Positions 4,781-21,231 of a DNA stretch of 64,000 bases are shown piece after piece. The DNA is from Sphaerisporangium siamense (lineage in GTDB: Bacteria; Actinomycetota; Actinomycetes; Streptosporangiales; Streptosporangiaceae). The notes beneath the pieces were generated by a model. That model saw only the letters and a program-made list of their open reading frames with translations. It was not told the origin of the DNA and made no database searches. Position 1 is the stretch's first letter. The number at the start of each line of letters is the position of its first letter. The DNA is taken from positions 1,364,001 to 1,428,000 of the forward strand of contig NZ_JACHND010000001.1 of the NCBI RefSeq assembly GCF_014205275.1, in the 5' to 3' direction. Made by a program: the position numbers and the translations under genes.

Positions 4781-4918
4781 CCTCCGGCCCCGGCACGCGC
4801 AGCCGTGGCCGATCGCCGCGACAGGCGTGGCGATCATGACGTGACGTGATCGGATCACTACGGTGTGCATGCACCTCCTCGGTGCCCCTATCCGACGACT
4901 CGATGCCGGAAGAAGGAC

Positions 4919-5428
4919 ATGCACACCATCCGCGTGACCGGCCGCATGGCCATGCTCATCTCAGGGATGGCGATCGCCGCCGTCTGCGGCCTCGCCCCCA
5001 TGGCCGCCGCGGCGACCGCCGGCCTCCCCGGGCGGGCGCTCGATCCTCCCGCCGAGGAACCGTGCCCGGGCGGGGAGCCGAAACCCTGCGGCGCGCCCGC
5101 GCAGGAACGCGAAAGCGTCGACGCCGGGCGCGAGGAGGCCAAGAAGGCCGCGGCGACGGCCGAGAAGGACATCGCCGCGGCCAAGGAGAGGGCCGAGAAG
5201 TGCGCTCCGGAGTCCAAGGAGTGCATGGCGAACCTCATCGGCGACGGCGCCGAGCAGCACAAGGGCCTGGACGACACCCGGCAGGCGCTGGAGGCGTTCA
5301 AGCCCGCGCCGGCGGACAACGCCGCCCCGGCCGTCGCCGGGGCGTGCGACGCGTTCGCCGCGGCGCTGGGCCCGCTGGTCCGAGGGGACGCCTCCCAGCT
5401 CACCGGCGTCTGCGAGCTGATGAAGTGA
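4919..5428 (+). CDS. Secreted coiled-coil hypothetical protein
   Basis: 169 residues. A signal peptide is clear: basic start, hydrophobic core MLISGMAIAAVCGLAPMAAA, and Ala-rich cleavage region. The mature part has a proline/cysteine segment, then a charged Ala/Glu/Lys helix around residues 60-105 that should form a coiled coil, then a short Ala-rich tail. Five or more cysteines lie in the mature part, suggesting disulfides outside the cell. No family is recognised. The ATG at 4919 follows AGAAGGA closely. The stop overlaps the next start by one base (TGATG), so translation is coupled. Confidence 0.65.
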   Translation: MHTIRVTGRMAMLISGMAIAAVCGLAPMAAAATAGLPGRALDPPAEEPCPGGEPKPCGAPAQERESVDAGREEAKKAAATAEKDIAAAKERAEKCAPESKECMANLIGDGAEQHKGLDDTRQALEAFKPAPADNAAPAVAGACDAFAAALGPLVRGDASQLTGVCELMK

Positions 5429-6354
5429 TGACCGCCATGAGCGCACGCATCAGATGGACGGCGCCGGTCCTCGCCGCCGCCCTGTGCACGCCCGCGCACG
5501 CCGCGTACGCCGGGCAGGCGTCCCCGTCGCCCGATATGCCCGTCGCGCAGGCCTTCGACGGCGACAAGCCTCTGTCCTCGGTGGCGAAGGTCACCGAGCG
5601 CTGCGCCGAGCGCCCCGGCGACTGCCGCTTCACCATCGACAAGAGCGCCTCCGGCGAGTACTACAGTGCGGTGAAGTCCCTGGGGAACGCGGTCATCAAC
5701 TGCACCCTCCACTCGATCAAGGTGACCCGGCAGGTCACGCTGCGGACCTCCACCTCCGACAACCTCGGCGGCCACATCGCCGGGAAGATCTCCGCGGAGG
5801 GCTCGGTCAACGGCTCCGGCGAGATCACGGGCGGCGTCAACGCCGAGGGCAACGGCAGCTTCGACACGCCCAACAAGCAGCAGGGCCCCTCCGCCACGGT
5901 CGGGGCCAAGGCCGGCGCCAACGGCAGCGGGAAGATCTCCGGCTCGCTCGGCGTGAAGGGTGCGTTCGAGGGCGCCTTCCAGCTCCAGTACCAGCGCACC
6001 TGGACGACGGAGAACACCGAGTCGACCAGCTACGACGTCACCGTGCCGTCCGGCGACGCCCTGGTGTTCGGCGCCAGCTCCGCCATGCAGCGCATCGCCG
6101 GCACCATCACCGTGGGCGGACTCCAGATCCGCGAAGTCGTCGTGGACGGCCCGTCCAGCATCAACACCAGCACGTTCTTCGCCAGCACCATGACCGCGCC
6201 CGGCGGGACCTGCCAGCGGCTGCGGCCGGAGGACAAGCCCCCGACCGGCGGCCCCGGCGATCGGCTCGCGGCCGGCGGGCTCACCGAGCTCACCGCGCCG
6301 CCGCCCGGCGCGCGGCTGAAGGAGCGCGTGACGCTCCCCGTCGGCCGTCCCTGA
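5428..6354 (+). CDS. Secreted protein with Gly/Ser/Asn-rich strands, possible aerolysin-like fold
   Basis: 308 residues starting at the ATG that overlaps the previous stop. A signal peptide (WTAPVLAAALCTPAHAAYA) is followed by a module with Cys pairs and YY then INCT (RCAERPGDCRF ... EYYSAV ... GNAVINCT). A long region of alternating Gly, Ser, Asn and Thr then follows, then TYD-type strands around SYDVTVPSGDALVFG and GTITVGGLQI, and a Pro-rich tail. The 'VPSGDALVF' strand pattern after Thr-rich strands resembles the stem region of ETX/MTX2-aerolysin pore formers, but the similarity is by eye only. The cysteine/INCT module recurs in the next gene. The role is unknown; it is certainly exported. 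Confidence 0.65.
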   Translation: MTAMSARIRWTAPVLAAALCTPAHAAYAGQASPSPDMPVAQAFDGDKPLSSVAKVTERCAERPGDCRFTIDKSASGEYYSAVKSLGNAVINCTLHSIKVTRQVTLRTSTSDNLGGHIAGKISAEGSVNGSGEITGGVNAEGNGSFDTPNKQQGPSATVGAKAGANGSGKISGSLGVKGAFEGAFQLQYQRTWTTENTESTSYDVTVPSGDALVFGASSAMQRIAGTITVGGLQIREVVVDGPSSINTSTFFASTMTAPGGTCQRLRPEDKPPTGGPGDRLAAGGLTELTAPPPGARLKERVTLPVGRP

Positions 6355-6388
6355 CCGTCCGCCCGAGCGTTCATTCGTGGAGATCATT

Positions 6389-7708
6389 GTGAAAAGGTTT
6401 CTCAGCCGTGCCCGGACCGGATCGGTCCGGGCCGCGGGTGTCGCCGCCGTCCTGGGCCTCGGCCTGTGCGCGCTCACCCTGCCCGCGGACGCCGAACGGG
6501 CCGCGCCCGTCCCGGTGGCCGTCGTCAACGGCGACTTCGCGCTGCCCGCGTTCACCGCCGACCCGAACTGGGCGGCGGTCCAGGGCTGGTCGGTGGGCTC
6601 GACCAACGGCTCGGGGACGTCGTCGGGCGTCGCGCGGTACGGGCCGAACTCCGGGCATCCGGCCGGGAAGGCGGCCGTCATGCTGCGCTTCCCCCTGCCC
6701 GCCTACGCCTTCAAGCAGCGGCTGCGCGGCGTACGGCCGGGAGCCCAGGTCACCGTCACCTTCGACGACAGCCCCGGCGTCGCCGCCGCCTGCACCCCCG
6801 GCTCGGTCGCGGACGGCCAGTCCTACACCGTCGAAGGGACCGGCGGCGCGGCGAGCACCAGGACGACCGCCCCAGACCCGGACAAGAAGGCCGGCACCCT
6901 CGGCAAGGGCGTCTGGCGCACCGGACAGACGTACACCTTCACCGCCGGCGAGTACGAGCCGCTGCTCACCTTCACCTCCCAGGTGCCGAACAGCGCGAAC
7001 GCCGGCGGGGGCTGCGGCCCCCTGATCGCCGACGTGCGGGCGACGCAGGCACCCCCTCCCGTGGACAAGACGATCCCGAAGACCGCCCTGCCGCCCTCGC
7101 TGGCCTTCTACGGCAATGACAGCAGGCCGGTCGCCGACGCGGTCAACTACTGCCTCGGCGTGGTGACCAGGTGCGTCTTCACCCCGGCGGAGGAATACTC
7201 CTACAGCTACTACGAGCCCGCCCAGGTCAACGGGGACGCCTACATCAACTGCACGCGCAACGAGCTGAAGCGCGCCCGGCCGCTGACGTTCGGGGGACGC
7301 TCCTACGGTGACCTGCCCGCCAACGCGGGGCTGCCGCCGAACGGGACCACCGTCACCAACCTGGCCCAGCAGTACGTCAACGGAATCGGCGCCGCCCCCG
7401 ACTGGACCACGACCACCACGCGGAACGTCACCGAGGTCGTCCAGCCCTCCGAGGCGTCCTGGATCGAGACCCAGGCGGGCCGCCGCCGCACCGAGGGGTG
7501 GTTCACCTCCTCGCCCGCGCCCGCCGACCCGAACACCGAGTGGCGGCTCTACACCGTCCTGGACCACGCGGCCACCACGCTCCCGGACCGGGTCTACCAG
7601 CGCACCGGCCCCATGACCTCGGCCGAGAAGCTGCGCTGCCGCTCCGACCGCCCGACCGCCCCGACCCCGGTCGGCGCGGGCGACCCTGCGGGCTTCACGC
7701 GCGGCTGA
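6389..7708 (+). CDS. Secreted protein, DUF642/CBM-like N-terminus plus shared Cys/INCT module
   Basis: 439 residues from the GTG at 6389, which has GGAG six bases upstream. After a signal peptide ending near LPADAERA, residues about 45-210 look like a jelly-roll carbohydrate-binding or DUF642 domain: NGDFALPAF, GWSVGST, HPAGKAAVML and VTVTFDDSPG. The C-terminal half repeats the module of the preceding gene (VTRCVFTP ... YSYYEP ... GDAYINCT) and the Thr-rich strand followed by VV(Q)PS. It is 34 bp downstream of its neighbour on the same strand. Together with 4919 and 5428 it forms a three-gene export unit of unknown function. Confidence 0.65.
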   Translation: MKRFLSRARTGSVRAAGVAAVLGLGLCALTLPADAERAAPVPVAVVNGDFALPAFTADPNWAAVQGWSVGSTNGSGTSSGVARYGPNSGHPAGKAAVMLRFPLPAYAFKQRLRGVRPGAQVTVTFDDSPGVAAACTPGSVADGQSYTVEGTGGAASTRTTAPDPDKKAGTLGKGVWRTGQTYTFTAGEYEPLLTFTSQVPNSANAGGGCGPLIADVRATQAPPPVDKTIPKTALPPSLAFYGNDSRPVADAVNYCLGVVTRCVFTPAEEYSYSYYEPAQVNGDAYINCTRNELKRARPLTFGGRSYGDLPANAGLPPNGTTVTNLAQQYVNGIGAAPDWTTTTTRNVTEVVQPSEASWIETQAGRRRTEGWFTSSPAPADPNTEWRLYTVLDHAATTLPDRVYQRTGPMTSAEKLRCRSDRPTAPTPVGAGDPAGFTRG

Positions 7709-7803
7709 GTCGTCCGCCCGGCGCCGCCATCCCGGACGCGCGCTCGCCGAATCGGATGTTGAGAGTACGGCGGGAGTGCGTGCCGGGTATGGCGGGTCGC
7801 CGG

Positions 7804-9135
7804 TCAGGCCGACGATCGCCCGGCCACCAAGGCACGGAGCTCACGAGCGGCGGGGAGATCGTGCGCCTTCTCGGGCAGCGCACCGGTGATCTCTCCGACG
7901 AGCCTGCGGCGTGCCGCAGTGACGGGCATTGGTCTCGTGACGTCAAGAGCGTGATCAAGTCCTTCGGTGACCTCGCGGTCCCTGACCAACGCCCAAGCCT
8001 GGACGAGGTGCATGTTCGCCCTTCCCCCGGCCTTCTCTCGTGGACATGCCGCGAAAGCCTGCTCGATCATGGGCATGGCCGCCTTCGTATCACCCAGCTC
8101 GGTCAGCGCGTACGCCTGGGCGAACTGGACGCTCTCCAGCGAGACACCCCAGACGGAGATGTGATCGCTCGTCACGGCCGTAGGCAGTCGCTGGAAGACG
8201 TCGTCGAGGTCGGTCACCGCTTTACGCGCGTCTTCGGATCTGCCCGCACAGGCGAGCATGCGAGCGCGAGTCTTCAAGCCCTCGGCCAGTCCCTGGCCCG
8301 CTCGTCCCTGAGCGAGATGAACGACTTCCTCGATCAAGTCGTCCGCGACCGTCCCACCACGACGGAGATAGAACGACTCAGAAGCCTCACGGGCGCGTAT
8401 CCACATGCGCAGTTCGACATCTCCGGCTGCGTCCGCCGCCGAGCGGGCGGCTCGCCATGAGCGCCAGGACGCGCGGGCGCTGGAGGTGTCCGCCAGCTCC
8501 AAGGCCATGAACGCCGTGAGCTGCGCGTAGACGCGGAGAAGATCCGCGCGTTCCGTGTCGCCCACCGTCCGCGCGAGTCGCTGTTCCAGGGCCTGGATGT
8601 CACCTGCAAGATCGACGAACCGGGAACCCGGCGGTTCGGTCCAGACACCTTGCGCGTAATCCCATGCGATTTGTTCCCATTCTTCCACGCTGTTCTCGGC
8701 GGACTGGCCGGTGAGCCTTGGCAGGCTCGAATGGAGGGCGTCTATCGCGGAGGCGGGAATGTGGGCTCCGGCGCCGAGCGTGGCCAAAAGCTGGAGAAGA
8801 GTACGGCGTTCCACATCGACCTCGTCACACGTTGGAGGACAGGAATCGACAACCACTGTACCCGCCCTAAATTGGGCAAGCTCTATCACGAATGCGTGAA
8901 GCGCCACAATCTGTCCAGTGGCCCCCAAAACATCATCGATGGCCTTGATGTGATCGCGGTGCGGCCGGGCGATGCCACGCTCCCACCTCGACAGTTCGCC
9001 TTGATCGACGAATGCGGCTTTCGCCAGATCGCGCTGGGAAAGATCACGAACGTCCACCCGCCAATGACGCAGGGAAGCACCGAGCAGACGCCACGGTGAT
9101 TCATCCGCTTTGACCTGATCGCTCATCCGCGACAT
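7804..9135 (-). CDS. XRE-family transcriptional regulator with long helical C-terminus
   Basis: 443 residues. An N-terminal helix-turn-helix of the XRE type is seen (LSQRDLAKAA and QGELSRWERG), followed by about 330 residues of helices rich in Ala/Leu/Glu, probably TPR-like. The C-terminus (LVGEITGALPEKAHDLPAARELRAL) is close to that of the regulator ending at 49615. The ATG at 9135 has GGGGAG seven bases upstream. It faces away from three small genes at 9315-10395, sharing a 179-bp intergenic region, as expected for a regulator of those genes (inference). G+C is about half in parts of the gene (31 of 60 bases at 8881-8940), well below the neighbours. Confidence 0.85.
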   Translation of the reverse strand: MSRMSDQVKADESPWRLLGASLRHWRVDVRDLSQRDLAKAAFVDQGELSRWERGIARPHRDHIKAIDDVLGATGQIVALHAFVIELAQFRAGTVVVDSCPPTCDEVDVERRTLLQLLATLGAGAHIPASAIDALHSSLPRLTGQSAENSVEEWEQIAWDYAQGVWTEPPGSRFVDLAGDIQALEQRLARTVGDTERADLLRVYAQLTAFMALELADTSSARASWRSWRAARSAADAAGDVELRMWIRAREASESFYLRRGGTVADDLIEEVVHLAQGRAGQGLAEGLKTRARMLACAGRSEDARKAVTDLDDVFQRLPTAVTSDHISVWGVSLESVQFAQAYALTELGDTKAAMPMIEQAFAACPREKAGGRANMHLVQAWALVRDREVTEGLDHALDVTRPMPVTAARRRLVGEITGALPEKAHDLPAARELRALVAGRSSA

Positions 9136-9314
9136 GGACGACTCCCCGGTGATGGATTGATGGAAAGGCTCTTCCCATCAAGATTCGCCTTGGTCCCTCC
9201 CCAAAGCTCTTCCACTATGACATCGCTACCGGAGAAAAGACCCGGTAAACAGCGGACCCGCCCGGCGCGCACAACACCGGAGGACCCTGACCGAAATGTG
9301 GAGGACGACCTGAG

Positions 9315-9671
9315 ATGAAGCCTGGAATGATCGGCGTCCACCGGGGAGCCGATGCCCCGCCGCCGCCCCGCTGGTACCGGCGTGCGAGGCGGAACAGAGG
9401 ACGGCACCGCGTCGGGGCCCCGTCCGTACCGATCGCGCCCCGCCGCTGGGACGTGGCCGAGCGTGCCGCCGCCGCGCTGCTCGACCGGATGGAGCCGGGA
9501 TGGTTCGTCACCTACGGCGTGGGCAGCCGCCGGTTCGCCGCCATCGCCGTCTGGTCCACTCCGGTACCCCTGATGGTCCAGGCCGCCACGATCGAGGAAC
9601 TCCGCGACCTGATGCGCGAAGCCGAGCTGGACCCGGCAAGGCCAGGTCTGTCGTGGGCGTGGGCGGCATGA
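9315..9671 (+). CDS. Small cassette protein A (WFVTYGVGSRRF family)
   Basis: 118 residues with no recognised domain. The conserved core is RRWD-AERAAA, then EPGWFVTYGVGSRRFAAIA, then ELRDLMREAE; the same core recurs in the protein at 51175-51462. The N-terminal 35 residues are basic and Pro-rich and not shared. Start ATG 9315 has GAGGA upstream. It overlaps the next gene by four bases (ATGA). It is divergent from the XRE gene. The function is unknown; it lacks a signal peptide and membrane segments. Confidence 0.65.
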   Translation: MKPGMIGVHRGADAPPPPRWYRRARRNRGRHRVGAPSVPIAPRRWDVAERAAAALLDRMEPGWFVTYGVGSRRFAAIAVWSTPVPLMVQAATIEELRDLMREAELDPARPGLSWAWAA

Positions 9672-10120
9672 GGACCTCCGGCGAGGAGCCGCCCGACCCG
9701 TACGGCTTCGGGCCGGGCGCGCGGATCTCGGTGGGAGGCCACTTCCCGCCCACGACGGCCGGCCGCGCGCCCGAACCCCCCGCGCCCGCCCAACCCGCCG
9801 ATGCCGCCCAACCCGCCGATCCCGCCCGATCCGCCCAGCCCACCGAGCACGCCCGTGCCGACCCCGGCGACGGGGCCGCCCCAGCCGCGACGGACGGCGA
9901 ATTGCACGCGGTCGCGCTGGTCGCCCGCTCGCTGACCGAGCACGCCGTGCCCTGGACGGTGGCGGTGCCCAGGACCCGTGCCACCACGGCATGCGGCGTC
10001 GTGGCCGTCGTCGCCGACATCTCCCGGTCCCGCGTCATCTGGATGCCGGGCGTGCTGATGTGCCGGGAGTGCGCCGCGGTGGTCACCGGCGGGCGGGAGG
10101 ACGTCGGTGAGCGTCCTTGA
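9668..10120 (+). CDS. Small cassette protein B (DPYGFGPGARISVGGHFPPTT family)
   Basis: 150 residues. The N-terminal 30 residues (DPYGFGPGARIS, GGHFPPTT) match the start of the fused protein at 51459-51914. A Pro/Ala/Gln-rich linker encoded by 18-bp repeats follows. The rest is a compact domain with ARSLTEHAVPWTVAVPRT and a CxxC (MCREC) near the end, which is absent from the second cassette. It starts at the ATG overlapping the previous stop. No known family. Confidence 0.6.
   Translation: MRTSGEEPPDPYGFGPGARISVGGHFPPTTAGRAPEPPAPAQPADAAQPADPARSAQPTEHARADPGDGAAPAATDGELHAVALVARSLTEHAVPWTVAVPRTRATTACGVVAVVADISRSRVIWMPGVLMCRECAAVVTGGREDVGERP
9788..9838. repeat. 18-bp imperfect tandem repeat in cassette gene B
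   Basis: GCCCAACCCGCCGAT occurs at 9788-9802 and 9806-9820, and a diverged copy at 9824-9838, all 18 bp apart. It encodes the Ala-Gln-Pro-Ala-Asp linker of the 9668-10120 protein. Confidence 0.8.
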
Positions 10121-10395
10121 CCGACGGCGCCGCCGGGCACGGCCCGCACGTTCTCCCGCCCCAGCCCGACTGCCGGCCGATCACGTGGCAGGCCGCGCTC
10201 CCCCCGGAGGATCGCCGCAAGGTCCTGCGCTGGACCTGCACGTGCAAGCCGTTGGTGTACTACCTGATCACCTCGGGCGGTCGCGGCTACGTCGAGCGCG
10301 CCACGCGCGGCGGCGACACCGACCAAACTCCGCGCCTCCGCTACGCCCCCCTCGCCGACCTGTGGGAACACCTCCTCCTCGGCCGCGCCCGATGA
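10117..10395 (+). CDS. Small cassette protein C (Cys-rich RWTCxCKPxVYYL family)
   Basis: 92 residues. The TTG start at 10117 overlaps the previous stop (TTGA). The core is PDC, then LRWTCTCKPLVYYLITSGGRGY, with three cysteines that could bind zinc, and a C-terminal DLWEHLLLGRA. The same domain is the C-terminal half of the protein at 51459-51914, with the cysteines, RWTC-CKP and GGRGY all conserved. No known family is recognised. A nearby GTG (10107) is in another frame. The next gene, hipA-like, converges from 10477. Confidence 0.6.
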   Translation: MTDGAAGHGPHVLPPQPDCRPITWQAALPPEDRRKVLRWTCTCKPLVYYLITSGGRGYVERATRGGDTDQTPRLRYAPLADLWEHLLLGRAR

Positions 10396-10476
10396 CATCC
10401 CAGCCGGAGCGATCGACAGGCACACCGAGTTCCTGAGCGGCATCCTTCGCATGCTCGCCATAGGAATATCTGCGCT

Positions 10477-11667
10477 TCAGAGCCCTTTCATGAGCGGCAA
10501 TGTGCGCAACCGTGTCTCCACATGTGCCCTTACGAAATCAGGGACCGGGCAGCCGGAAAGCACTTCTGCCCACGAGTCGGCCAACGCGGCCACCGACTCG
10601 TGGGCAGTTCGCGCAACCGCCTCGGCGTCCGCGCCGACCGCCTCGGCGAAGCCACGGAAATGGTCCGACGTCACGTACCGAGTGTCATGCTGCCCACCAA
10701 TCGGCAAGGTCAGGGTGTCTGTGCTGAACAACTCGTAGGCGGTTACCGATACAACGTCGTACGCGGGGGAAAGCCGCCGGGTCCGGCCGTCAGGGTAGCG
10801 CAGGGACCAGTTCTTCATATGCTCGTCGGTATTGCCTACGATGATGCACGCCGCAACCCGGCGCACGAACTCCGCCAGATCCTGCGGGCATTCTTTCTGG
10901 ATCAGCTCACCGATGTCCTCGGCCCGCCCCCGATCCTTGTGTATGGGGGCAAGCCCGAAGACCTGTGCGAAGTCCTCCTGGTGGATCCGCGCCCTCGCGG
11001 CGCGATCGAAACGCCTGATGGCATATGCGCGCTCACCAGGCTTTATCAGGCCGGCAGGGATCTCCCTGAGGTCGGCCGGGGCGACCAGACGGTGCTCTGG
11101 GACGTCTAGCCCCGCGAGGCGCAGCCAGGTCATGATGGCGTACTCGTTCTCGGGAAGCGCGGGAAGCCGCGTACTCGGGAATTTGACGATCCAGTCACCG
11201 CCGACGCCCTCGTACCGGAACTCGTCGCCGACCTTACGCATCGACAGCTTCACCTGCATGCCGGAAAGTGAGAAGCTCAGCTTTCCAGGAACCGGTGTCG
11301 CGGCCGTGTCCTCGGCGACAGCCTCGTCCACATGAGGTTGGTCCATGCGCACCGTGACAGCACCTGGCAGATCCTCACCCAGATGGACCAGCAGGGAGAA
11401 GTCACTCATCCAGTTCACACCGAGTTCGGACATGATCATTCTCCGGAGTCCTGAACCCTTCTCCGGCAGAAGATTGGCGAACCACGGAGGCACGCTGCCC
11501 CCGTATCCCTTCTCGGTCGTCAGCGGATCGTACTCGTAGCGCAATCCGAGGACCGGCCGGTCGACCGCCCGATCGGTATATCTGAAGGAAACCCGGCCTG
11601 CCTGCTGGGTGAGGAGCCCTACCTCGCGTTCGCCCAGCAGGACGCGCGCGACGGCGCGATTCTTCAT
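10477..11667 (-). CDS. HipA-family serine/threonine kinase
   Basis: 396 residues, a full-length single-chain HipA: an N-terminal subdomain with PWFANLLPEKGSG (compare the NLLPDS of E. coli HipA), then PGAVTV, LSGMQVKLSM in the nucleotide-binding region and WIVKFPS. The catalytic Asp281 is in NTDEHMKNW and the metal-binding Asp304 in SPAYDVVS, 23 residues apart as in E. coli HipA, so the kinase looks intact. HipA kinases phosphorylate aminoacyl-tRNA synthetases or other targets and halt growth unless held by an antitoxin. No HipB-type helix-turn-helix gene is adjacent. Instead it overlaps the upstream DUF262 gene by four bases. Base composition is lower in GC than the flanks. Confidence 0.9.
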   Translation of the reverse strand: MKNRAVARVLLGEREVGLLTQQAGRVSFRYTDRAVDRPVLGLRYEYDPLTTEKGYGGSVPPWFANLLPEKGSGLRRMIMSELGVNWMSDFSLLVHLGEDLPGAVTVRMDQPHVDEAVAEDTAATPVPGKLSFSLSGMQVKLSMRKVGDEFRYEGVGGDWIVKFPSTRLPALPENEYAIMTWLRLAGLDVPEHRLVAPADLREIPAGLIKPGERAYAIRRFDRAARARIHQEDFAQVFGLAPIHKDRGRAEDIGELIQKECPQDLAEFVRRVAACIIVGNTDEHMKNWSLRYPDGRTRRLSPAYDVVSVTAYELFSTDTLTLPIGGQHDTRYVTSDHFRGFAEAVGADAEAVARTAHESVAALADSWAEVLSGCPVPDFVRAHVETRLRTLPLMKGL

Positions 11668-13277
11668 TCCTCACCACCCAGGCGAGGGAGCCCGGGGCCG
11701 TCGGGAAAACCGAACAATGCGTTCTCCTGGACGTGGGACTCGATCAGTTCTCGCACGTGCTCCGCTCGCCGGGCCAGAAACTCCTCAGCCGATCCCGCAC
11801 GCCAGAGACGTATGCCGACCTGGTCGATGACATGACTATGGAATGCACTCTGAAAATCAGAATAGCTGGCCTCGTCGAGAAGCCACCGAAGTGACCGAGC
11901 CGTTTCAGCGGGTGGATGGACGAAGCAGTTGGCGATACTTTCAGCCAAGGGTAGGTCATGGGAAGCCAGACGAGCCAATGGACTACCGTCCGTGTCCATG
12001 AGCGCCCAGGCGTCGACCGGCCCGGTATCGAAGACCATTCCACCGTCGTCTCTGGCGAGCACATGGGGATGACGAGAGAGCAGGGCAAGAATATTCACTT
12101 TGGCCTGTGCCGTATTGAGCTTTATCGCCGAGAGATCTGCTCGCCATACTTTCTTATCCAGCAACTGCAGCAGCCGATCGGCGCTGGCCACCGGATCACC
12201 GTCAATGACCCTGGTGTTCTGCCGCAGCGCCCTGGCGGCACCCAGCGGCGCCACCCCGAGCACCGAGCCACGCCAAACCCATCGGCGTAGTAGTTCAGCG
12301 GCCCTACCTTCAGGCGAGCCGAATACGGAGTTGAACCTTGCCAGGATCACCAGGAAGAGCATATAGGGCAGCAAACGCACATGTGGAATTCCTGCGACCT
12401 CGCGAAGAAACTCCACGGCCCCGCCGAGTGCGTACTCGGTCTTTTTGAACGCGGCACGTCGCTCACCTTCGCCACCGAATCCGAAGCTCTGATCACGCGC
12501 GAGACGGCCACGGTTGACGATGAGCACCGACTGAATCAAGACACGTTCGGGGATCGGACCGAATCCGAACCCTCGAACTGATGCGGCAAGGGACTGCAGA
12601 TCCGAGGGTTGCATCTGGTCAGCCACGTTGCGCAGCGCATTGAATATCTCTGGTCGGGTCAAGCTCCTGCCAGAGGTGTTAATGCGGTCGAAGATGTCCT
12701 GGACCGCGCCCTCATCGCCCCCTTCGACGATGTGCACGGGCACGGCGTAGTCCCGGATCGCCACGGCGACCGCGAGACAGCGGGCAACAGCGTCTTCGCC
12801 GAGCCAGGTACGCTCATGCTGCCATCTGATAAGTCGCACGGTGTCCAGCGCCAGGGAAACCGGCATCCAATGATCCGGAATCTGGTTTCGCCTTCCCGCC
12901 GAGACGAACCGGTCCTCTGCAAGATCGTAGAAGACGCGAAAACGTGGATCGACGGTGTCAGGCGGGGCAGCGAGCGCGCCGACCAAACTGGTGATGCGCT
13001 GCTGTCCGTCCACCACCCACATGGCATACGGACTTTCGGCCGCATGGATGACGAGCGGACCCACGTCGAGCGTGGCAGGGCCTGCTGGTCGCCGCCACAT
13101 GAGCAGAGTTCCGATTGGATAGCCACGCAGAATGCTGTCGAACAGCAGCAGCACGTCATCGCGTCGCCATCGATAGGATCGCTGAAAAGCGGGAATCCGA
13201 ATTTCGCCCGACAATACCCATTCCACGAGGCTGCCCACCTTCGCCTGGAAGACCGTGGAGTGGGTGGTCGCGGGCAT
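11664..13277 (-). CDS. DUF262 (ParB/GmrSD-type) protein coupled to HipA
   Basis: 537 residues. The DUF262 signature is clear: IPAFQRSYRWRRDDV near residue 30-45, GYPIGTLLMW, and the DGQQRITSLVG motif near residue 105. DUF262 is a ParB-like nucleotide-binding/hydrolysing fold, found in GmrSD-type modification-dependent restriction systems and other defence genes. No DUF1524/HNH motif is visible in the C-terminal half, so a nuclease activity is not supported. I chose the ATG at 13277 because AAAGGAGG lies six bases upstream; the frame is open 62 codons further up. One line counted in the gene (12121-12180) has 31 of 60 G+C. The stop overlaps the kinase start (ATGA), implying a two-component unit. 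Confidence 0.85.
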   Translation of the reverse strand: MPATTHSTVFQAKVGSLVEWVLSGEIRIPAFQRSYRWRRDDVLLLFDSILRGYPIGTLLMWRRPAGPATLDVGPLVIHAAESPYAMWVVDGQQRITSLVGALAAPPDTVDPRFRVFYDLAEDRFVSAGRRNQIPDHWMPVSLALDTVRLIRWQHERTWLGEDAVARCLAVAVAIRDYAVPVHIVEGGDEGAVQDIFDRINTSGRSLTRPEIFNALRNVADQMQPSDLQSLAASVRGFGFGPIPERVLIQSVLIVNRGRLARDQSFGFGGEGERRAAFKKTEYALGGAVEFLREVAGIPHVRLLPYMLFLVILARFNSVFGSPEGRAAELLRRWVWRGSVLGVAPLGAARALRQNTRVIDGDPVASADRLLQLLDKKVWRADLSAIKLNTAQAKVNILALLSRHPHVLARDDGGMVFDTGPVDAWALMDTDGSPLARLASHDLPLAESIANCFVHPPAETARSLRWLLDEASYSDFQSAFHSHVIDQVGIRLWRAGSAEEFLARRAEHVRELIESHVQENALFGFPDGPGLPRLGGEE

Positions 13278-13474
13278 CCCGCCTCCTTTCCTCGTGCACA
13301 GGCCATCGTATGCCGTAGCTGATTGCGTAGCGAACCGAATACATAGTGTGTCGGGGCCGCCCCGGCCACGGTGAGCGGTCGTCTCAGAGGGGGTCCAGTG
13401 GCCGCCCGATTCGGGTCGCGCCACGCCCAGGTCTGGTGCCAGCGTTCCGGAGGGGTAGACCATAGCCTGCGGTC

Positions 13475-14212
13475 ATGAGGGTGGCCGGGGCGCGGGTGCT
13501 GATCACGGGGGGATCGTCCGGGGTCGGTGCGGCGGTCGCGCGGGTGATGGCCGGGGCCGGGGCCAAGGTGGTCGTCGCCGGGCGGGATCGGGAGCGGCTG
13601 GAGGCCGTGGCCGCACAGACCGGAGGGCTGGCCGTCGTCTCCGATGTCACCGCGGACGGCGAGCTGCTCGCCGGGTGTGCAGGGAACGTCGATGTGCTCG
13701 TCAACAACGCCGGGGCGGGATGGGCGGGGCCCTTGGTCGAGATGGCGCCGGGCCGGGTGGACGAGCTAGTGGCGGTCAACCTCGCGGCGCCGATCCATCT
13801 GACGCGGCTCCTGCTGCCCCGGATGATCGAGGCCGGGCGTGGACACGTCGTCTTCGTGGCCTCGATCGCGGGCGCGGTCGGGGTCGGGCGCGAGGCGGTG
13901 TACTCGGCGGCAAAGGCCGGGCTCATCGTGTTCGCGGAGGCGCTGCGGCAGGAGCTGCGCGCGGTCCCGGGCGTCGGAGTCTCGGTGATCGTCCCCGGTG
14001 TGGTGGACACGCCGTTCTTCCTGCGGCGCGGCGCCCCGTACGACCGCCGCTGGCCGCCGCCGATCCCTCCGGAACGGGTAGCGCGCTGCGTCCTGAGAGC
14101 CGTCGAACGCGGGCGCGCCGAGTCGTACGTCCCCGGCTGGCTCAGGGTCCCGGCGCGGCTGCGGGGCTCCCTGCCCGGCCTGTACCGAGGGCTCGCCGGA
14201 CGCCTCGGGTGA
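13475..14212 (+). CDS. Short-chain dehydrogenase/reductase
   Basis: 245 residues with a Rossmann fold: TGGSSGVGAAVA cofactor loop near the N-terminus, NNAGAGWAG, Ser in FVASIAG and the catalytic YSAAK. The basic residue following the second strand suggests NADP. It reduces or oxidises an unknown carbonyl/alcohol substrate. It is divergent from the DUF262-HipA unit (197 bp between starts) and converges on hpnH. The C-terminus is Arg/Leu-rich and could sit at the membrane. No operon partner. Confidence 0.9.
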   Translation: MRVAGARVLITGGSSGVGAAVARVMAGAGAKVVVAGRDRERLEAVAAQTGGLAVVSDVTADGELLAGCAGNVDVLVNNAGAGWAGPLVEMAPGRVDELVAVNLAAPIHLTRLLLPRMIEAGRGHVVFVASIAGAVGVGREAVYSAAKAGLIVFAEALRQELRAVPGVGVSVIVPGVVDTPFFLRRGAPYDRRWPPPIPPERVARCVLRAVERGRAESYVPGWLRVPARLRGSLPGLYRGLAGRLG

Positions 14213-14291
14213 CCAGGCCGACGGCGGGTCCGGCGCACCAAGACCAGCACGAGAGACCGGCCCGCCAGGACCGGCCGTTGCGCGGGGGCGG

Positions 14292-15296
14292 TCAGCGGGC
14301 GTGGATGGCGCGGAGTGATTCCTTCAGGGAGCTCAGGGTGGCGAAGATGGCGGTGGGTTCGTAGCCGCAGTGGGCCATGCAGTTGGCGCAGCGCGGGTCG
14401 CGGCCGCGGCCGTAGGCGTTCCAGTCGGTGTCCTCCACCAGTTCCCGGTACGTGCGGGCGTAGCCGTCCGACATCAGGTAGCACGGGCGCTGCCAGCCGA
14501 ACAGGGAGTACGACGGTATGGCCCAGGCGGTGCAGGGGAAGTCGACCTTCCCTTCGAGGAAGTCCAGGAACAGCGGCGAGTGGTTGAAGCGCCACCTGCG
14601 GCGGTTGCCGCCCGCGAACGCCTTCCTGAACAGGGCGCGGATCTCGGCCACGCCGAGGAAGTGCTCCTGGTCCGGGGCCTTCTCGTAGGCGTAGGCCGGT
14701 GAGATCATCATCTGGTCCACGGCCAGGTCGTCGTTGAGGTAGTTGAGCACGTCGATGACGGTCTGCGGTGAGTCGCCGCTGTAGAAGGTGGTGTTCGTCG
14801 TGACCCGGAAGCCGCGGCGGCGGCACTCGCGGACCGCGGCCACCGCCTCGTCGAAGACGCCCTGCTTGCACACCGACGCGTCGTGGCGCTCGCGCAGGCC
14901 GTCGATGTGGACGGTCCAGGCGAAGTACCGCGACGGCGTGAACTGGTCGATCTTCCTCGGGATCAGCACGGCGTTGGTGCACAGGTAGACGTACTTCTTG
15001 CGCTCGACGAGCCGGCGCACCATCTCCCCGATCTGGGGGTGCATGAGCGGTTCGCCGCCCGCGATGGAGACCATGGGGGCGCCGCTCTCCTCGACGGCCG
15101 CGACGGCCTGGTCGACGGGCATGCGCCGCTTCAGCACGTCGGCGGGATGCTGGATCTTGCCGCAGCCGGCGCACGCCAGGTTGCAGGCGAACAGCGGCTC
15201 CAGCTCGACCAGGAGCGGGAACTTGGCGCGCCGCCGCAGCTTCTGGCCAAGTATGTAGCCGCCCACGCGCAGGCTCTGGCGAAACGGGATCGTCAT
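14292..15296 (-). CDS. hpnH: Adenosyl-hopene transferase HpnH (radical SAM)
   Basis: 334 residues. The radical SAM cluster motif CNLACAGC appears near residue 38-45, followed by SIAGGEPLMHP, as in HpnH. Conserved cysteines late in the protein (CANCMAHCGYEP) match the family. HpnH joins a 5'-deoxyadenosyl radical to diploptene to give adenosylhopane, the first step to C35 hopanoids. It is the last gene of the hopanoid operon; its start overlaps the stop of hpnG by four bases, and length matches the family. A terminator is not obvious between it and the converging SDR gene. Confidence 0.95.
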   Translation of the reverse strand: MTIPFRQSLRVGGYILGQKLRRRAKFPLLVELEPLFACNLACAGCGKIQHPADVLKRRMPVDQAVAAVEESGAPMVSIAGGEPLMHPQIGEMVRRLVERKKYVYLCTNAVLIPRKIDQFTPSRYFAWTVHIDGLRERHDASVCKQGVFDEAVAAVRECRRRGFRVTTNTTFYSGDSPQTVIDVLNYLNDDLAVDQMMISPAYAYEKAPDQEHFLGVAEIRALFRKAFAGGNRRRWRFNHSPLFLDFLEGKVDFPCTAWAIPSYSLFGWQRPCYLMSDGYARTYRELVEDTDWNAYGRGRDPRCANCMAHCGYEPTAIFATLSSLKESLRAIHAR

Positions 15297-16027
15297 GACA
15301 GCACCTCCCCGGGAGGCGGTATCGGAATGTCGTCCTCGGCCCTGCCGGGCCGAGTCCCTGCCTGTTCCACGGCGCGCGCCCACCGGGTGAGGGCGGGGCC
15401 GACGAGGCGGAGCGCGCGGCGCGCGGTGAGGCCCGCGCGCAGGGTGGCGAGGCCGAGCAGCGGCGTCCCCGGGCCGTCCACGACGACGCGCACCGCGGCC
15501 ACCGGGCGTCCCCCGGCCGCCTCGGCGAGCGGCCCGGCCTCCATGTCCACGGCGAGGGCCACGTCCCGGCCGGGTGAGGAGGCCCCGCGGGGGCCGGGTA
15601 CGGGGGCGAGGGGAAGGCCGGGCACGGGGGCCGGGCGGCGGGTCGCGGCGAGGCGGCGGCGCTCGGTCTCGCGCACCACGTGGCCGATGGTCAGCAGCGG
15701 CCCGACGCGGACGCGCAGCCCGGCCCGCGTGAGTTCCCTGGCCAGCAGGGACGCGGACGCGCAGGGGTGGGCGTGCGCGCCGAACCGCACCTCGTCGGCC
15801 ACCACGACGTCCCCGGGCCGCAGGGCCGCGTCGAGCGCGCCGCCGAACCCGGCCACGGCCAGCGCGTCGTACGGCGGCAGCAGGCACCCGGCGCGTGCGG
15901 CCCGGCGCGGGCCCATGCCGGTCTTGATCACGCGCGCGTCCACGCCCGATGGCGGCACGGCGGTGAGGCCGTGACGCAGGGCCCTGGCTTCGAGGGCGAG
16001 CGCGGCGCAGACCAGGAGGCGGGTCAT
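15293..16027 (-). CDS. hpnG: Adenosylhopane nucleosidase-like HpnG
   Basis: 244 residues of the nucleoside phosphorylase/MTA-SAH nucleosidase fold: LVCAALALEARAL at the start, IKTGMGP, VAGFGGALD, GDVVVADEV, and VDMEAGPLAEAA, which carries the Met-Glu of the active site. HpnG removes adenine from adenosylhopane to give a ribosyl/phosphoribosyl hopane. The start overlaps the shc stop by four bases, and the stop overlaps the hpnH start, so it is translationally coupled on both sides. Confidence 0.92.
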   Translation of the reverse strand: MTRLLVCAALALEARALRHGLTAVPPSGVDARVIKTGMGPRRAARAGCLLPPYDALAVAGFGGALDAALRPGDVVVADEVRFGAHAHPCASASLLARELTRAGLRVRVGPLLTIGHVVRETERRRLAATRRPAPVPGLPLAPVPGPRGASSPGRDVALAVDMEAGPLAEAAGGRPVAAVRVVVDGPGTPLLGLATLRAGLTARRALRLVGPALTRWARAVEQAGTRPGRAEDDIPIPPPGEVLS

Positions 16028-18042
16028 GGGGCGCCGTCCCCCTCATGGGCAGCCAGGAAGCCGTCCTCCTCGCGGTCGGCCAGGAAGCCGTCCTCCTCGC
16101 GCGCCTCCAGGAAGCCGTCGCTCTCGCGGGCGGCCAGGTAGCTCTCCCCGCCGTGGGTGGCCAGGTCGCTCTCCCGCTCGCGGGCCGCCAGGTAGCGGCC
16201 GAGGGCGCTGATCGGGAAGACCAGCCGGTAGAGGTGGTAGTTGATGTAGAAGTCGCCGGGGAATCCGGTGCCGGTGAAGTACGGCTCGTCCCAGGTGCCG
16301 TCCGGCCGCTGGGTCTCCACGAGCCATCGCACGCCCCGGTCCACGACCTCCGAGCGTTCGCCCGCGGCGAGCAGGGCGAGCAGCGCCCAGGCGGTCTGCG
16401 ACGCGGTGGAGGCCCCGCGCCCGATCCACGCCGGGTCGGCGTAGGACCGCAGGTCCTCCCCCCAGCCGCCGTCCTCGTTCTGGTGGTCGCGCAGCCAGGC
16501 GACCGCGCGCCGCACGCAGGCGCTCTCCGGGCGCACGCCGGCCGCGACCAGCGCGGGGACCACGGCGCCGATGCCGTACACGTGGTTGGCGCCCCAGCGT
16601 CCGAACCAGGAGCCGTCCGCCTCCTGCGCCTTGAGCAGCCAGACGACCGCGCGCCGCAGCAGCCGGGTCCGCCCGTACCCCTCGTGGGCGAGCGCCTCGA
16701 CGACGTGCGCGGTGACGTCGGCGGACGGCGGGTCGATGACCGCGCCGAAGTCGCAGAACGGCAGCCGCGTGATGAGCGCGCGGGTGTTGTCGGCGTCGAA
16801 GGCCGCGAAGCCGCCGTCGCGGGACACCATGCCCGCCATCCACCGCACCCCGCGGTCGACGGCCTCGCGCGCGCCGGGGCGTCCGGTGCGGCGCAGGGCC
16901 AGGACGACCTCGGCGGTGTCGTCGGTGTCGGGGTAGCCGTCGTTGTCGAACTCGAACGCCCACCCGCCGGGCGGTAGGCCCGGCCGCCGCACGGCCCAGT
17001 CGCCCGGCCCCTTGACCTCCTCGCCGATCAGCCAGTCCGCGGCCTGGACGATGGCCGGGTCCTCGGCGGGGATTCCGGCGTCCAGCAGCGCGTTGACCGC
17101 GAGCGCGGTGTCCCACACCGGGGACTGGCACGCCTCCAGCCTGCGCTTCTCGCCGTCCCTGATCGTGAACCGGTCGAGCCCCTGGATGCCCTTGCGCATG
17201 ACGGGGTGGTCGACGTCGTAGCCGGACAGGTTGAGGGCGATCAGCGAGTACACCCAGGGCGGCTGGATGCCTCCCCAGGAGCCGTCCGGCTCCTGCCGGG
17301 CGACGATCCACTCGGCGGCGCGCCGCAGCGCCGCCGCGCGCGTGCCCTTCAGCGGCGCCCGCTCGTACCGGCGCAGCACGTGGTCCAGCGCGGCGAAGGC
17401 CCTCTCCCAGCCCGTGCGCGCCTCACGCCGCACGGGCCGTCCGGTGCGCAGCTCGTCCAGGTCGAACGGCAACGGGCGCACGGGCCGGTGCGCGCGCACG
17501 ATGGTGAGCGGGACGATGGTCTGCCGGGCCCAGCACCCCCAGTCGTACACGTTGAACGGGAACCAGGGCGGCAGGTACACCAGCTCGGGCGGCAGCGCGG
17601 GCAGGTCCTCCCACCGCCACTGGCCGAACAGGGCCAGCCAGACGCGGGTGAACACACGGGTCGCCTCGATGCCGCCCGCGCGCAGGACGTAGGCGGCGGC
17701 GGCGCGCATGTGCGGCGCCTCGGGCGGGTCGCCCGCGAGACGCAGCGCGGCGTACGCCTCGACCGTGGTGGACGGCTCGGGCGGGCCGCCGTGGAAGTTG
17801 GCCCAGGTGCCGTCGGCGCGCTGCTCGGCGCGGATCCACCGCGCCGCCCCGGCGGTGTCCTCCTCGCCGCGGATGCCGAGGAACTCCCGCAGCAGCAGGT
17901 CCTCGGCGTCCATGGTGACGTTGGTCTGCAGTTCGCCCTTCCACCACCCCTGCGGCGAGCGCAGTCCGATCAGGTGGTCGCAGGCCGCGCCGAGGGCGAG
18001 CCCGGCGCTGGAGGCGGGCAGGTCGACGTCGACGGTGGTCAT
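16024..18042 (-). CDS. shc: Squalene-hopene cyclase with repeat-extended C-terminus
   Basis: 672 residues. The class II terpene cyclase acid motif DTDD (in YPDTDDTAEV) is near residues 369-372, close to D374-D377 of the Alicyclobacillus enzyme. Several QW repeats (for example QEPDGSWGG, KAQEADGSWFG, QNEDGGWGE, QRPDGTWDEPYF) and the GFPGDFYINYHLYR segment are present. It cyclises squalene to hopene/diplopterol at the membrane. The normal end (ISALGRYLAARE) is followed by an acidic tail made from a 27-bp tandem repeat, not part of the catalytic fold. The start overlaps the prenyl synthase stop by one base. Confidence 0.97.
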   Translation of the reverse strand: MTTVDVDLPASSAGLALGAACDHLIGLRSPQGWWKGELQTNVTMDAEDLLLREFLGIRGEEDTAGAARWIRAEQRADGTWANFHGGPPEPSTTVEAYAALRLAGDPPEAPHMRAAAAYVLRAGGIEATRVFTRVWLALFGQWRWEDLPALPPELVYLPPWFPFNVYDWGCWARQTIVPLTIVRAHRPVRPLPFDLDELRTGRPVRREARTGWERAFAALDHVLRRYERAPLKGTRAAALRRAAEWIVARQEPDGSWGGIQPPWVYSLIALNLSGYDVDHPVMRKGIQGLDRFTIRDGEKRRLEACQSPVWDTALAVNALLDAGIPAEDPAIVQAADWLIGEEVKGPGDWAVRRPGLPPGGWAFEFDNDGYPDTDDTAEVVLALRRTGRPGAREAVDRGVRWMAGMVSRDGGFAAFDADNTRALITRLPFCDFGAVIDPPSADVTAHVVEALAHEGYGRTRLLRRAVVWLLKAQEADGSWFGRWGANHVYGIGAVVPALVAAGVRPESACVRRAVAWLRDHQNEDGGWGEDLRSYADPAWIGRGASTASQTAWALLALLAAGERSEVVDRGVRWLVETQRPDGTWDEPYFTGTGFPGDFYINYHLYRLVFPISALGRYLAARERESDLATHGGESYLAARESDGFLEAREEDGFLADREEDGFLAAHEGDGAP
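16054..16215. repeat. 27-bp tandem repeat in the 3' end of shc
   Basis: A CAGG-anchored unit recurs exactly every 27 bp at 16054, 16081, 16108, 16135, 16162 and 16189. It encodes nine-residue units of the type FLxAREEDG or YLAARExxx. The last unit merges with the genuine cyclase C-terminus (YLAARE), suggesting the tail grew by slippage from the native 3' end. Confidence 0.85.
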
Positions 18043-19055
18043 CAGCGGTCCCTGCCGGTGAGGAACAGGACGATGTCCAGGAAGTCGGCGCGGACGTCGG
18101 CGGGCATGCCGGCGTCGGCGAGGTGGCGTCCGGCGGCGTCGAGCCGGTGTTTGGCCTCGGTCTCGGCCCAGTCCCTGCCGCCCGCCTCCTCGACCAGGCG
18201 CGCGGCGGTCCGCAGGTCCTCCTCGGAGAGGGGATCGGGCCGGGCGAACAGGCGGGCCAGGTGGACGGCCGCCGGGGCGCCGCCGGTGAGGGCGGCGACG
18301 ACGGGCAGGCTCTTCTTGCGGGCCCGCAGGTCCGACAGCACCGGCTTGCCGGTCGCCTCGGGGCTGCCCCAGATGCCGAGCAGGTCGTCGGCGAGCTGGA
18401 AGGCCAGCCCCGCCTCCGCGCCGAACGCGGCCAGGGCCGAGACCAGCGGCGCCGGGCCCGCCACGGCGGTGGCGCCGATGGAGCAGGCGCACGCCAGCAG
18501 GTCGCCGGTCTTGCGCGCCGACATCTCCAGGCACTCGTCGAGGGACACGTCGTCGCGCCGCTCGAACGCCAGGTCCAGCCCCTGTCCCGCGATGAGGCCG
18601 CGGGTGGCGCGGCCGAGCGCGCGGGCCGCGCCCACGAAGCCCGGACCCTCCCGTTCGACCAGCACCTCCCCGGCCAGCGCGAGCAGGGCGTCGCCCGCGA
18701 GGATCGCCTCGGCCTCGCCGAACACCGTCCACGCGGCGGGGCGGTGCCTGCGGGTGCGGTCGCCGTCCATGATGTCGTCGTGGAGCAGCGAGAACGCGTG
18801 CACGAGCTCCACCGCGGCCCCGGCCACGGCCCCCTGCGCGGCGTCGCCGCCCGCGGCCCTGGCCGACAGGACGGCGAGCGCGGGGCGCAGCGCCTTGCCG
18901 CCGTGGGAGGCCGCGCGTCCGGAGGCGTCCGCCCAGCCCAAGTGGTAGGCGGCGACCCGCGCCGTGATCGGGTCGAGCCGCGCGACCGCCTCCCGCAGCA
19001 CCGGCTCGACCAGCCCGCGCGCGGCCTCCACCGCCGCCGGGACCACCGGGGTCAC
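18042..19055 (-). CDS. Polyprenyl (farnesyl/geranylgeranyl) diphosphate synthase
   Basis: 337 residues of the trans-isoprenyl synthase fold: first aspartate-rich motif LLHDDIMDGD and second motif FQLADDLLGIWG, with GKALRPAL for diphosphate binding. It supplies farnesyl diphosphate (or a longer prenyl chain) for HpnD. Chain length cannot be fixed by eye, but residues before the first motif (VHAFSL) are small to medium. GTG start at 19055 overlaps the hpnE stop (GTGA), and its stop overlaps the shc start. Fourth gene of the hopanoid operon. Confidence 0.9.
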   Translation of the reverse strand: MTPVVPAAVEAARGLVEPVLREAVARLDPITARVAAYHLGWADASGRAASHGGKALRPALAVLSARAAGGDAAQGAVAGAAVELVHAFSLLHDDIMDGDRTRRHRPAAWTVFGEAEAILAGDALLALAGEVLVEREGPGFVGAARALGRATRGLIAGQGLDLAFERRDDVSLDECLEMSARKTGDLLACACSIGATAVAGPAPLVSALAAFGAEAGLAFQLADDLLGIWGSPEATGKPVLSDLRARKKSLPVVAALTGGAPAAVHLARLFARPDPLSEEDLRTAARLVEEAGGRDWAETEAKHRLDAAGRHLADAGMPADVRADFLDIVLFLTGRDR

Positions 19056-20374
19056 GAGGGGACCCACTGCCGTAGATGCCGCCTGACGAGGCGGGCCGCG
19101 TCGAGTCCGCTGCGCACGGCGCCCTCCATGGTGTCGGGCCAGCCCGTGTTCGTCCACGCGCCGGCGAGGTAGAGGCCGGGCCACCGGGTGGCGGCCCGTG
19201 GGCGGAGAGATCCGCTGCCAGGGCTCTGCTGGAAGGTGGCGCGACGCTCCCGGGTGACGAAGAAGTCGACGAGCCGCGCGTCGCGCCGCGCGGGGAAGAG
19301 CTGTTCGAGGGCGGGGACGAACTCGGCCTGGAGCTTGGCGACCGGCGCGTCGATCCACCGGGCGGCGGCGGAGACCGAGACGGCGAGGTACTGGCCGCGG
19401 GTCAGCCCGGCGACGCGGGTCTTGTCGAAGATCCACTGCACCGGGGAGTCGACGACGGCGGCGAACGGCAGGTCGGTGATCCGCCGGTCGAAGACGGCGT
19501 GCACGTTGACGATGGGGCCGGCCCCGAGGCCGCTCCAGTCCTCCCGGTCGGGCGCGGCCTCGTGCGGGGTCAGCTTGGCGGCCTGCTCGTGCGGCGTGGC
19601 GACGATGACGGCGGACGCGGCGACCCTTTCCCCGCCCACGACCACTGCGGGGCCGGCCTCGACGGCCGTGACCTTGGCCGACAGGCGCACCTCGCCGCCG
19701 CGCGCGGCGATGGCGGCCATGGCGCGCGTGCCGTGCAGCTCGCCGAGGGGGACGGCGGGCACGCCGATGTCGGCCGCGCCTGCCCGGCCGAGCAGGGCCG
19801 TTCTGAACACCTTGACGGCCGGGGCCAGCGACGCCTCCTCGCTCGGGACGTTGAGCGCCGCCACCGTGAACAGGTCCCACAGCGCCTCGCGGGCGCGGGC
19901 GCGCTGGCCGTGGCCGGCGAGCCAGGCGCCGAGGGTGACCCTGTCCAGCGCCGGGTCGGCCGGGTCCAGGCGGGTCAGCGCGACGGACGCGCGGAGGGCG
20001 CGCAGCCGGTCGGCCGGTCGCAGGAGCCCGTAGGCGGCGATCGCGGGGGCCAGGTGGAACGGGCCGGGGAGCGCGGCGCGGCGCAGCCGTCCCGCGCGCC
20101 CGGACGGGGTGAGGACGCGGACGTCGAAGCGGTCCTGGAGGTGGACGTCGCCGGGGGCGGCGATGCGGGCGAGCAGTCCCCGGTAGGCGGTGCAGCAGCG
20201 CAGGAACACGTGCTGGCCGTTGTCCACGGTGAGCCCGTCGCGCGGGAAGGAGTGGGTGGCGCCGCCCAGCCGGGGACGCGCCTCGTACAGCGTCACCGGC
20301 AGCCCCGCCTCGCCGAGGGCCACGGCGGCGGCGATGCCCGCCAGGCCGCCGCCGACGATCGCGACCGGCCTCAT
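19052..20374 (-). CDS. hpnE: Hydroxysqualene dehydroxylase HpnE (FAD-dependent)
   Basis: 440 residues. The N-terminal dinucleotide fold (VAIVGGGLAGIAAAVAL, then LYEARPRLGGATHSF) and NGQHVFLRCCTAYR match squalene-associated FAD-dependent desaturase HpnE. The C-terminal FAD motif GLYLAGAWTNTGWPDTMEGAVRS is typical. HpnE reduces hydroxysqualene to squalene. Start and stop each overlap the neighbouring genes by four bases. Confidence 0.95.
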   Translation of the reverse strand: MRPVAIVGGGLAGIAAAVALGEAGLPVTLYEARPRLGGATHSFPRDGLTVDNGQHVFLRCCTAYRGLLARIAAPGDVHLQDRFDVRVLTPSGRAGRLRRAALPGPFHLAPAIAAYGLLRPADRLRALRASVALTRLDPADPALDRVTLGAWLAGHGQRARAREALWDLFTVAALNVPSEEASLAPAVKVFRTALLGRAGAADIGVPAVPLGELHGTRAMAAIAARGGEVRLSAKVTAVEAGPAVVVGGERVAASAVIVATPHEQAAKLTPHEAAPDREDWSGLGAGPIVNVHAVFDRRITDLPFAAVVDSPVQWIFDKTRVAGLTRGQYLAVSVSAAARWIDAPVAKLQAEFVPALEQLFPARRDARLVDFFVTRERRATFQQSPGSGSLRPRAATRWPGLYLAGAWTNTGWPDTMEGAVRSGLDAARLVRRHLRQWVPS

Positions 20375-21228: not shown

Positions 21229-21231
21229 CCC

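Follow-up and report, generated by a model that had tools for sequence, protein, structure and literature searches.

HipA kinases are seen mainly as persistence toxins controlled by HipB, and DUF262 proteins as restriction enzymes that bear a nuclease. A locus of Sphaerisporangium siamense, located in a stretch of 64,000 nucleotides (contig NZ_JACHND010000001.1, positions 1,364,001 to 1,428,000; this whole stretch is called the window below), raises the question of what is encoded when a DUF262 gene runs directly into a gene for a HipA-family kinase. The coordinates of the pair and its ATGA overlap had been given correctly in the initial annotation of this DNA (minus strand; Table 1), which had regarded the pair as a possible new toxin-antitoxin or defence system. 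In our analysis the two genes, which are present together across several phyla, probably constitute a small system of the defence or toxin-antitoxin kind that is undescribed.

The initial annotation had allowed that the pair might occur only here, which proved not to be the case. DUF262 matches to the window protein are present in 145 of the 297 genomes of the order, and all 23 non-self matches of about 187 bits or more (21 among L003-L023, plus L052 and L053) adjoin a HipA gene or HipA remnants. The weaker DUF262 loci L024-L031, viewed with 1.5 kb flanks, are without HipA in seven of eight cases; the eighth, L029 (the same locus as L060), was rejected as a pair, since its HipA is part of an ordinary hipBA (the one hipBA seen) encoded on the opposite strand and its DUF262 protein has the nuclease histidines. 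On contigs of named genomes the single-protein query P0002 returned no related loci, and these were found with an alignment query (A1), from which the best 80 of at least 338 relatives (585 candidate stretches) were kept as L072-L151. In 77 of these 80 loci the DUF262 gene is followed, on its own strand, by a complete or partial HipA gene, a number that comprises 68 intact pairs and nine loci with a one-sided fragment (HipA short or broken in L088, L103, L108, L110, L111, L117 and L141; DUF262 broken in L121 and L144) and that describes this clade and not DUF262 proteins at large, since the 80 were picked by their likeness to paired proteins. The three unpaired loci are L109, which ends at the contig edge, L129, which is without HipA, and L151, where the gene downstream resembles a transposase by eye. 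By record title the 77 paired loci belong to Actinomycetota (48), Pseudomonadota (15), Myxococcota (11), Thermomicrobiota (1) and Acidobacteriota (1), with one unassigned; the first three phyla are firm, the remaining three assignments being single contigs of metagenome-assembled genomes.

The distribution of the pair is patchy. Of 396 genomes surveyed in the phylum, six (the source genome among them) matched a DUF262 profile (A3) at E ≤ 1e-60, and HipA at E ≤ 1e-25 matched 23 of the 297 genomes of the order; in its own genome the locus is the sole match to protein P0002 and to HipA_C (E ≤ 0.001). Four HipA-matched places are without DUF262, namely an intact-looking one (L189), two broken ones (L190 and L191) and one with a distant HipA that is 32% identical (L192). 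The orphan HipA of L189 (6577-7782, minus strand) keeps its catalytic residues and is preceded by what appears to be the leftover C-terminus of a DUF262 protein, and the frame-broken HipA copy of L190 has flanking genes sized like those of L189. Alignment A1 found no relatives in viral contigs, and among 50,697 phage records there was one partial match (query 13-358, 27%). As a separate observation, the DUF262 proteins of 'Comamonas sp. KCTC 72670' and Myxococcus vastator (L112/L127) hardly differ, and the downstream genes are of similar sizes, which reflects either recent transfer or assembly contamination.

The two genes are closely coupled and co-inherited. They overlap or lie at most 20 bp apart in 65 of the 68 intact pairs of L072-L151 and in 22 of 22 pairs of the first set, the window's included, the two collections having some genomes in common. 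Protein distances of the partners correlate (Mantel r 0.74 for 82 pairs, with 0 of 2000 permutations as high; HipA proteins of L072-L151 trimmed to 430 residues), a correlation that is partly due to shared species history. Chance adjacency of DUF262 and HipA is ruled out by the 77/80 pairing together with this correlation. In a midpoint-rooted FastTree phylogeny without 15 duplicate or fragmentary loci, the HipA-linked DUF262 proteins fall into a single clade of 90 (88 paired and two not; local support 100), separate from the sister group and from HNH-bearing proteins. In the sister clade (L054-L059, L062-L067) the DUF262 gene is the third of a row, following genes of 396-454 and 313-324 aa at all 12 loci, and its product has DGHQR in place of DGQQR; in L057, the one such row put to Pfam, the first gene is an AAA ATPase and the second is without a match. 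The same layout is found on a Paracoccus plasmid (L196, 2690-6689). Related DUF262 proteins therefore have different partner genes.

The motifs IPAFQRSYRW and DGQQR, which the initial annotation had cited, are present at residues 28-37 and 90-94 of the window DUF262 protein, whose sole Pfam family at E ≤ 1 is GmrSD_N (3.9e-27, residues 24-215 only). The QR, DGQQR and FxxxN positions, being the DUF262 motifs of GmrSD and BrxU, are conserved in 86-88 of the 88 HipA-linked DUF262 proteins; L043 reads EGRQR. With BrxU, a type IV restriction enzyme, the window protein can be aligned from end to end, and it has the fold of full-length BrxU. The earlier statement that no HNH domain is visible was borne out in that no DUF1524 or HNH family matched at E ≤ 1, but considering the full-length alignment with BrxU and the absence of the nuclease histidine pair, 'probable HNH remnant' is to be preferred over 'no HNH domain'. 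This histidine pair, characteristic of the GmrSD/BrxU HNH nuclease, is present in four of four nuclease relatives and in 0 of the 88 HipA-linked proteins, where histidine occupies the first column in nine cases and the second in one. Nine of the 88, the window protein among them, have an HH or HxxP string at another place in the remnant segment, where the residues of the AN motif are for the most part retained (A in 76 and N in 72 of the 88). Judging from these residues, the DUF262 protein of the pair has probably lost its own nuclease.

The window HipA matches HipA_C (6.2e-47) and Couple_hipA (4.2e-18) and is 25% identical to E. coli K-12 HipA over 356 columns. Both catalytic aspartates had been reported as kept, and D281 and D304 indeed align with the two aspartates of E. 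coli HipA at the same spacing of 23, while S133 aligns with the serine preceding its Gly-rich loop; the counterparts we take to be D309, D332 and Ser150, respectively. Residues K162, N279, D281, H283, K285, N286 and D304 are invariant in all 65 aligned HipA proteins and S133 is present in 64, so that the HipA_C domain, the catalytic and metal-binding aspartates and the Gly-rich loop of the family are all represented. With regard to the loss of kinase activity that the initial annotation had raised as an objection, the kinase appears intact in its catalytic residues, as read from the sequence. Variants of the kinase were observed besides: in the Corallococcus/Myxococcaceae loci L115, L138, L139, L140 and L143 the paired HipA is a C-terminally extended protein of 665-666 aa, the extension in L115 and L138 resembling a SAM methyltransferase (motif read by eye), and L134 contains, at 9575-13291 (plus strand), a fused HipA of 761 aa that is extended at its C-terminus and, roughly 0.2 kb further downstream, another HipA-like gene of 415 aa.

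A HipB-type antitoxin had been described as missing next to the pair, and none was found near it under another name either: the closest helix-turn-helix gene detected, at 7804-9135 and separated from the pair by 1.34 kb, encodes an HTH_31/HTH_3 regulator of 443 aa. For neighbour counts across loci, eight loci common to both collections were removed. Among 143 small neighbours (at most 220 aa, within two genes), HTH_31, HTH_3 and HTH_37 were matched by four, three and two proteins, possibly overlapping, among the 25 of 127 families listed; there is therefore no regular HipB-type partner. No recurring third gene was seen in the neighbour rows, in which lengths and strands vary. Larger neighbours were searched with PADLOC at E ≤ 1e-15 (178 of 200 scanned, as sets of 91 and 87), as were 96 of 98 controls, which represent one order only. 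In the 91, PglX/type IIG (one protein) was the only defence-specific name among the 25 of 29 families listed, matches to the PD-T4-6, mad2/mad6, MkoA, TPR and RT-Protease_XI models being taken as generic. The 87 contained HsdS, REase_I, MzaA (L144), SoFic, RT_UG29, PDC-S68 and PDC-M17B, one each (25 of 77 families listed), in addition to matches to RecD models and to the PADLOC 'HNH' model (L106); separateness of the matches as proteins was checked for MzaA and HNH only. The controls showed kinase-like models in up to four proteins and no specific defence name (25 of 44 families listed). The neighbours lend weak support to a defence context.

Signs of mobility are present at several levels. 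The GC content of the pair had been described as clearly lower than that of its flanks, and it amounts to 0.622 versus 0.714 for the window; GC is as low in one of 306 2.8-kb windows and, for 20 stretches drawn at random from the order (160 windows), in 2.5%. Across loci, a lower GC content than in the flanks is seen for the pair in 75 of 78 cases (mean difference -6.7 points). One genus-mate (G120) has 165 bp in place of 7694-13462, and another (G185) 722 bp in place of 4787-13462. The pair is also found on two Azospirillum plasmids, of which one, typed conjugative, has a recombinase gene adjoining the pair and the other is typed non-mobilizable; in both records the genes bear only the names 'DUF262 domain-containing protein' and 'type II toxin-antitoxin system HipA family toxin'. 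Decayed copies of the pair exist as well. It was further observed that in L034, L035, L039, L041 and L069 the pair seemingly occupies one chromosomal site in several genera, with purD/purC-like genes in L041 (by eye) and like-sized genes in most of the others, the L069 copy being decayed.

Table 1 Features of the locus, in positions of the window.
Feature	Position	Strand	Remarks
DUF262 (GmrSD_N/ParB-Srx-like) protein, 537 aa, first gene of the pair	11664..13277	-	BrxU-like full-length fold, without the nuclease histidine pair
HipA-family Ser/Thr kinase, 396 aa, second gene	10477..11667	-	Couple_hipA and HipA_C; K162, D281, N286 and D304 kept
ATGA stop/start overlap (translational coupling) of the DUF262 and HipA genes	11664..11667	-	
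Region upstream of the DUF262 gene	13278..13312	-	GGAGG (ribosome site) and -10-like CATACGATG at 13304-13312
Variable segment: pair, HTH_31 regulator, three small ORFs	7694..13462	.	

The -10-like element, read by eye, is shared by the window locus with L033 and L072. Rfam gave no match at gathering scores for window positions 7000-16000. Beside the pair, a hopanoid-type gene cluster was read from open reading frames at 14292-21903 (minus strand), comprising a radical SAM HpnH-like gene with DUF3463, a nucleosidase, a squalene-hopene-cyclase-like gene, a polyprenyl synthase and HpnE/D/C-like genes, with Pfam being applied to 14292-16027 only.

The reading that we favour, with about half of our confidence, is that of a self-contained mobile module, toxin-antitoxin-like and probably anti-phage, in which a DUF262 sensor and inhibitor with a decayed nuclease is combined with a HipA kinase as effector. 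DUF262 proteins are described as NTP-using sensors that control a nuclease, as far as the available text of PMC12137116 and PMC11662687 goes. The DUF262 protein of the pair would be a GmrSD/BrxU-type sensor with its nucleotide-handling motifs retained, the effector role having been taken over by the kinase encoded directly behind it. In a quiet cell, DUF262 would probably bind and restrain HipA; a trigger acting on DUF262, by homology modified or foreign DNA, would change its NTP state and free HipA, which would then phosphorylate an essential target (by analogy an aminoacyl-tRNA synthetase) and thereby stop both growth and phage. Inhibition of HipA by DUF262 is plausible because of the precedent of HipA/DUF3037, in which deletion of the partner is toxic according to the text available of PMC12548924, and sensing of DNA modification is plausible because of the type IV enzymes. 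More tentatively, and with a probability that we place below even, the pair may represent a new class of immunity, in which recognition of foreign or modified DNA would lie with a type IV restriction sensor whose nuclease has decayed, and the response would be given by a HipA protein kinase in place of DNA cleavage. If so, this would be abortive infection based on a kinase and triggered by a DUF262 NTPase and, taken together with the three-gene rows of the sister clade, would make the DUF262 sensor a module with exchangeable effectors.

Several observations weigh against the sensor-effector reading. The HxxP of the window protein and the HH of L104 and L141 near the remnant may mean residual nuclease activity, and the kinase fold of HipA rests on sequence comparison. 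Ten larger neighbours identified by Pfam, eight of which were picked because several loci had a 500-600-aa gene upstream, are of metabolic or other non-defence kinds (AspRS-like, LeuA-like and serine dehydratase among them), and defence-specific names are few, about nine among 178 near neighbours (one in the 91 and about eight in the 87). Upstream of 90 loci no enrichment of operator-like palindromes was detected (mean longest arm 5.31 versus 5.13 in letter-shuffled sequence). The intact-looking HipA of L189, which has no DUF262 beside it, speaks against DUF262 being strictly an antitoxin, unless this HipA gene is silent. The last two points also weigh against a plain toxin-antitoxin or addiction module, in which DUF262 would be an unusual antitoxin, perhaps an autoregulator, that stabilises mobile DNA without sensing phage. 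Such a module is somewhat unlikely in our estimation: it agrees with the gene order (partner first) and the coupling, in both of which the pair resembles E. coli hipBA, with the patchy distribution and plasmid copies and with the HipA/DUF3037 precedent (PMC12548924, available text), but a 537-aa BrxU-like protein that keeps its sensor motifs would be costly as a mere antitoxin.

The direction of control might also be the reverse, with HipA phosphorylation switching a still-active DNA-binding or nicking DUF262 enzyme on or off. Co-inheritance of the genes, the full BrxU-like fold and the mostly kept AN motif would agree with this, whereas the absence of the histidine pair (0/88) and the lack of a DUF1524 match at E ≤ 1 make it improbable. 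A metabolic or developmental regulatory pair without a role in conflict is the least probable explanation that we considered, and a very doubtful one; the ten Pfam-identified neighbours speak for it, as do the window's flanking SDR and radical SAM genes, which are likewise metabolic or otherwise non-defence, yet a pair that spans several phyla, is AT-rich, is absent from close relatives, is carried on plasmids and occurs as decayed copies does not fit such a role well.

The initial annotation knew of no described system built from this pair, and a literature search agrees with it: no description of a DUF262-HipA pair was found in the literature searched, which leaves out preprints and most subscription papers, so that a description elsewhere is possible. 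The HipA survey PMC8262856 supports this as well, insofar as its main text, which distinguishes ten Hip gene organizations and in general requires a DNA-binding partner gene, does not contain 'DUF'; the present organization, unnamed in that text, is now added. DUF262 is named among genes near KKP modules in the available text of PMC11341870, without HipA. The occurrence of the pair in several phyla connects HipA kinases with DUF262 proteins and offers a simple two-gene system for asking in what way a toxin kinase could be governed by a DNA sensor that uses nucleotides.

Among known systems, HipBA of E. coli K-12 shares the kinase family (N-terminal Couple_hipA and catalytic core) and a directly upstream, overlapping partner gene, which encodes there a HipB helix-turn-helix protein and here a DUF262 protein of 537 aa. 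HipAD/DS-6/PDC-M66 is likewise a two-gene HipA module without HipB, and HipA with DUF3037 is experimentally anti-phage (PMC13092281 and PMC12548924, as far as available); the partner there is DUF3037 (with DUF1829 in DS-6), which is absent here, and the 65 HipA proteins matched in PADLOC (E ≤ 1e-5) only PDC-M03A, weakly. The PDC-M55C model of the PADLOC candidate PDC-M55, for which no paper was found in the literature searched, is matched by all 75 DUF262 proteins of A3 at E ≤ 1e-10 (the window protein over residues 16-517, 4.2e-57), but the window HipA, the only coupled gene, matches no PDC-M55 model (E ≤ 1), so that the multi-component make-up of PDC-M55 is not found here; our guess is that the three-gene rows of the sister clade are PDC-M55. 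The proposed defence operon ptuXYZ also includes a DUF262 protein without HNH, its partners being a PtuA-like ATPase and a YoeB-related RNase, and the available text of PMC11980606 contains HipA only in reference titles. The type IV restriction enzymes BrxU, GmrSD, SspE and DndI share the DUF262 motifs and full-length fold and possess an HNH nuclease (PMC12137116 and PMC11662687, in the text available), whereas the DUF262 protein described here lacks the histidine pair and its gene is followed by one for a kinase. GrwAB, finally, is a two-gene system with DUF262 that defends against phages with modified DNA, but according to the available text of PMC12137116 its effector is a His-Me nuclease and no kinase is involved, while the locus described here has a HipA kinase in second position.
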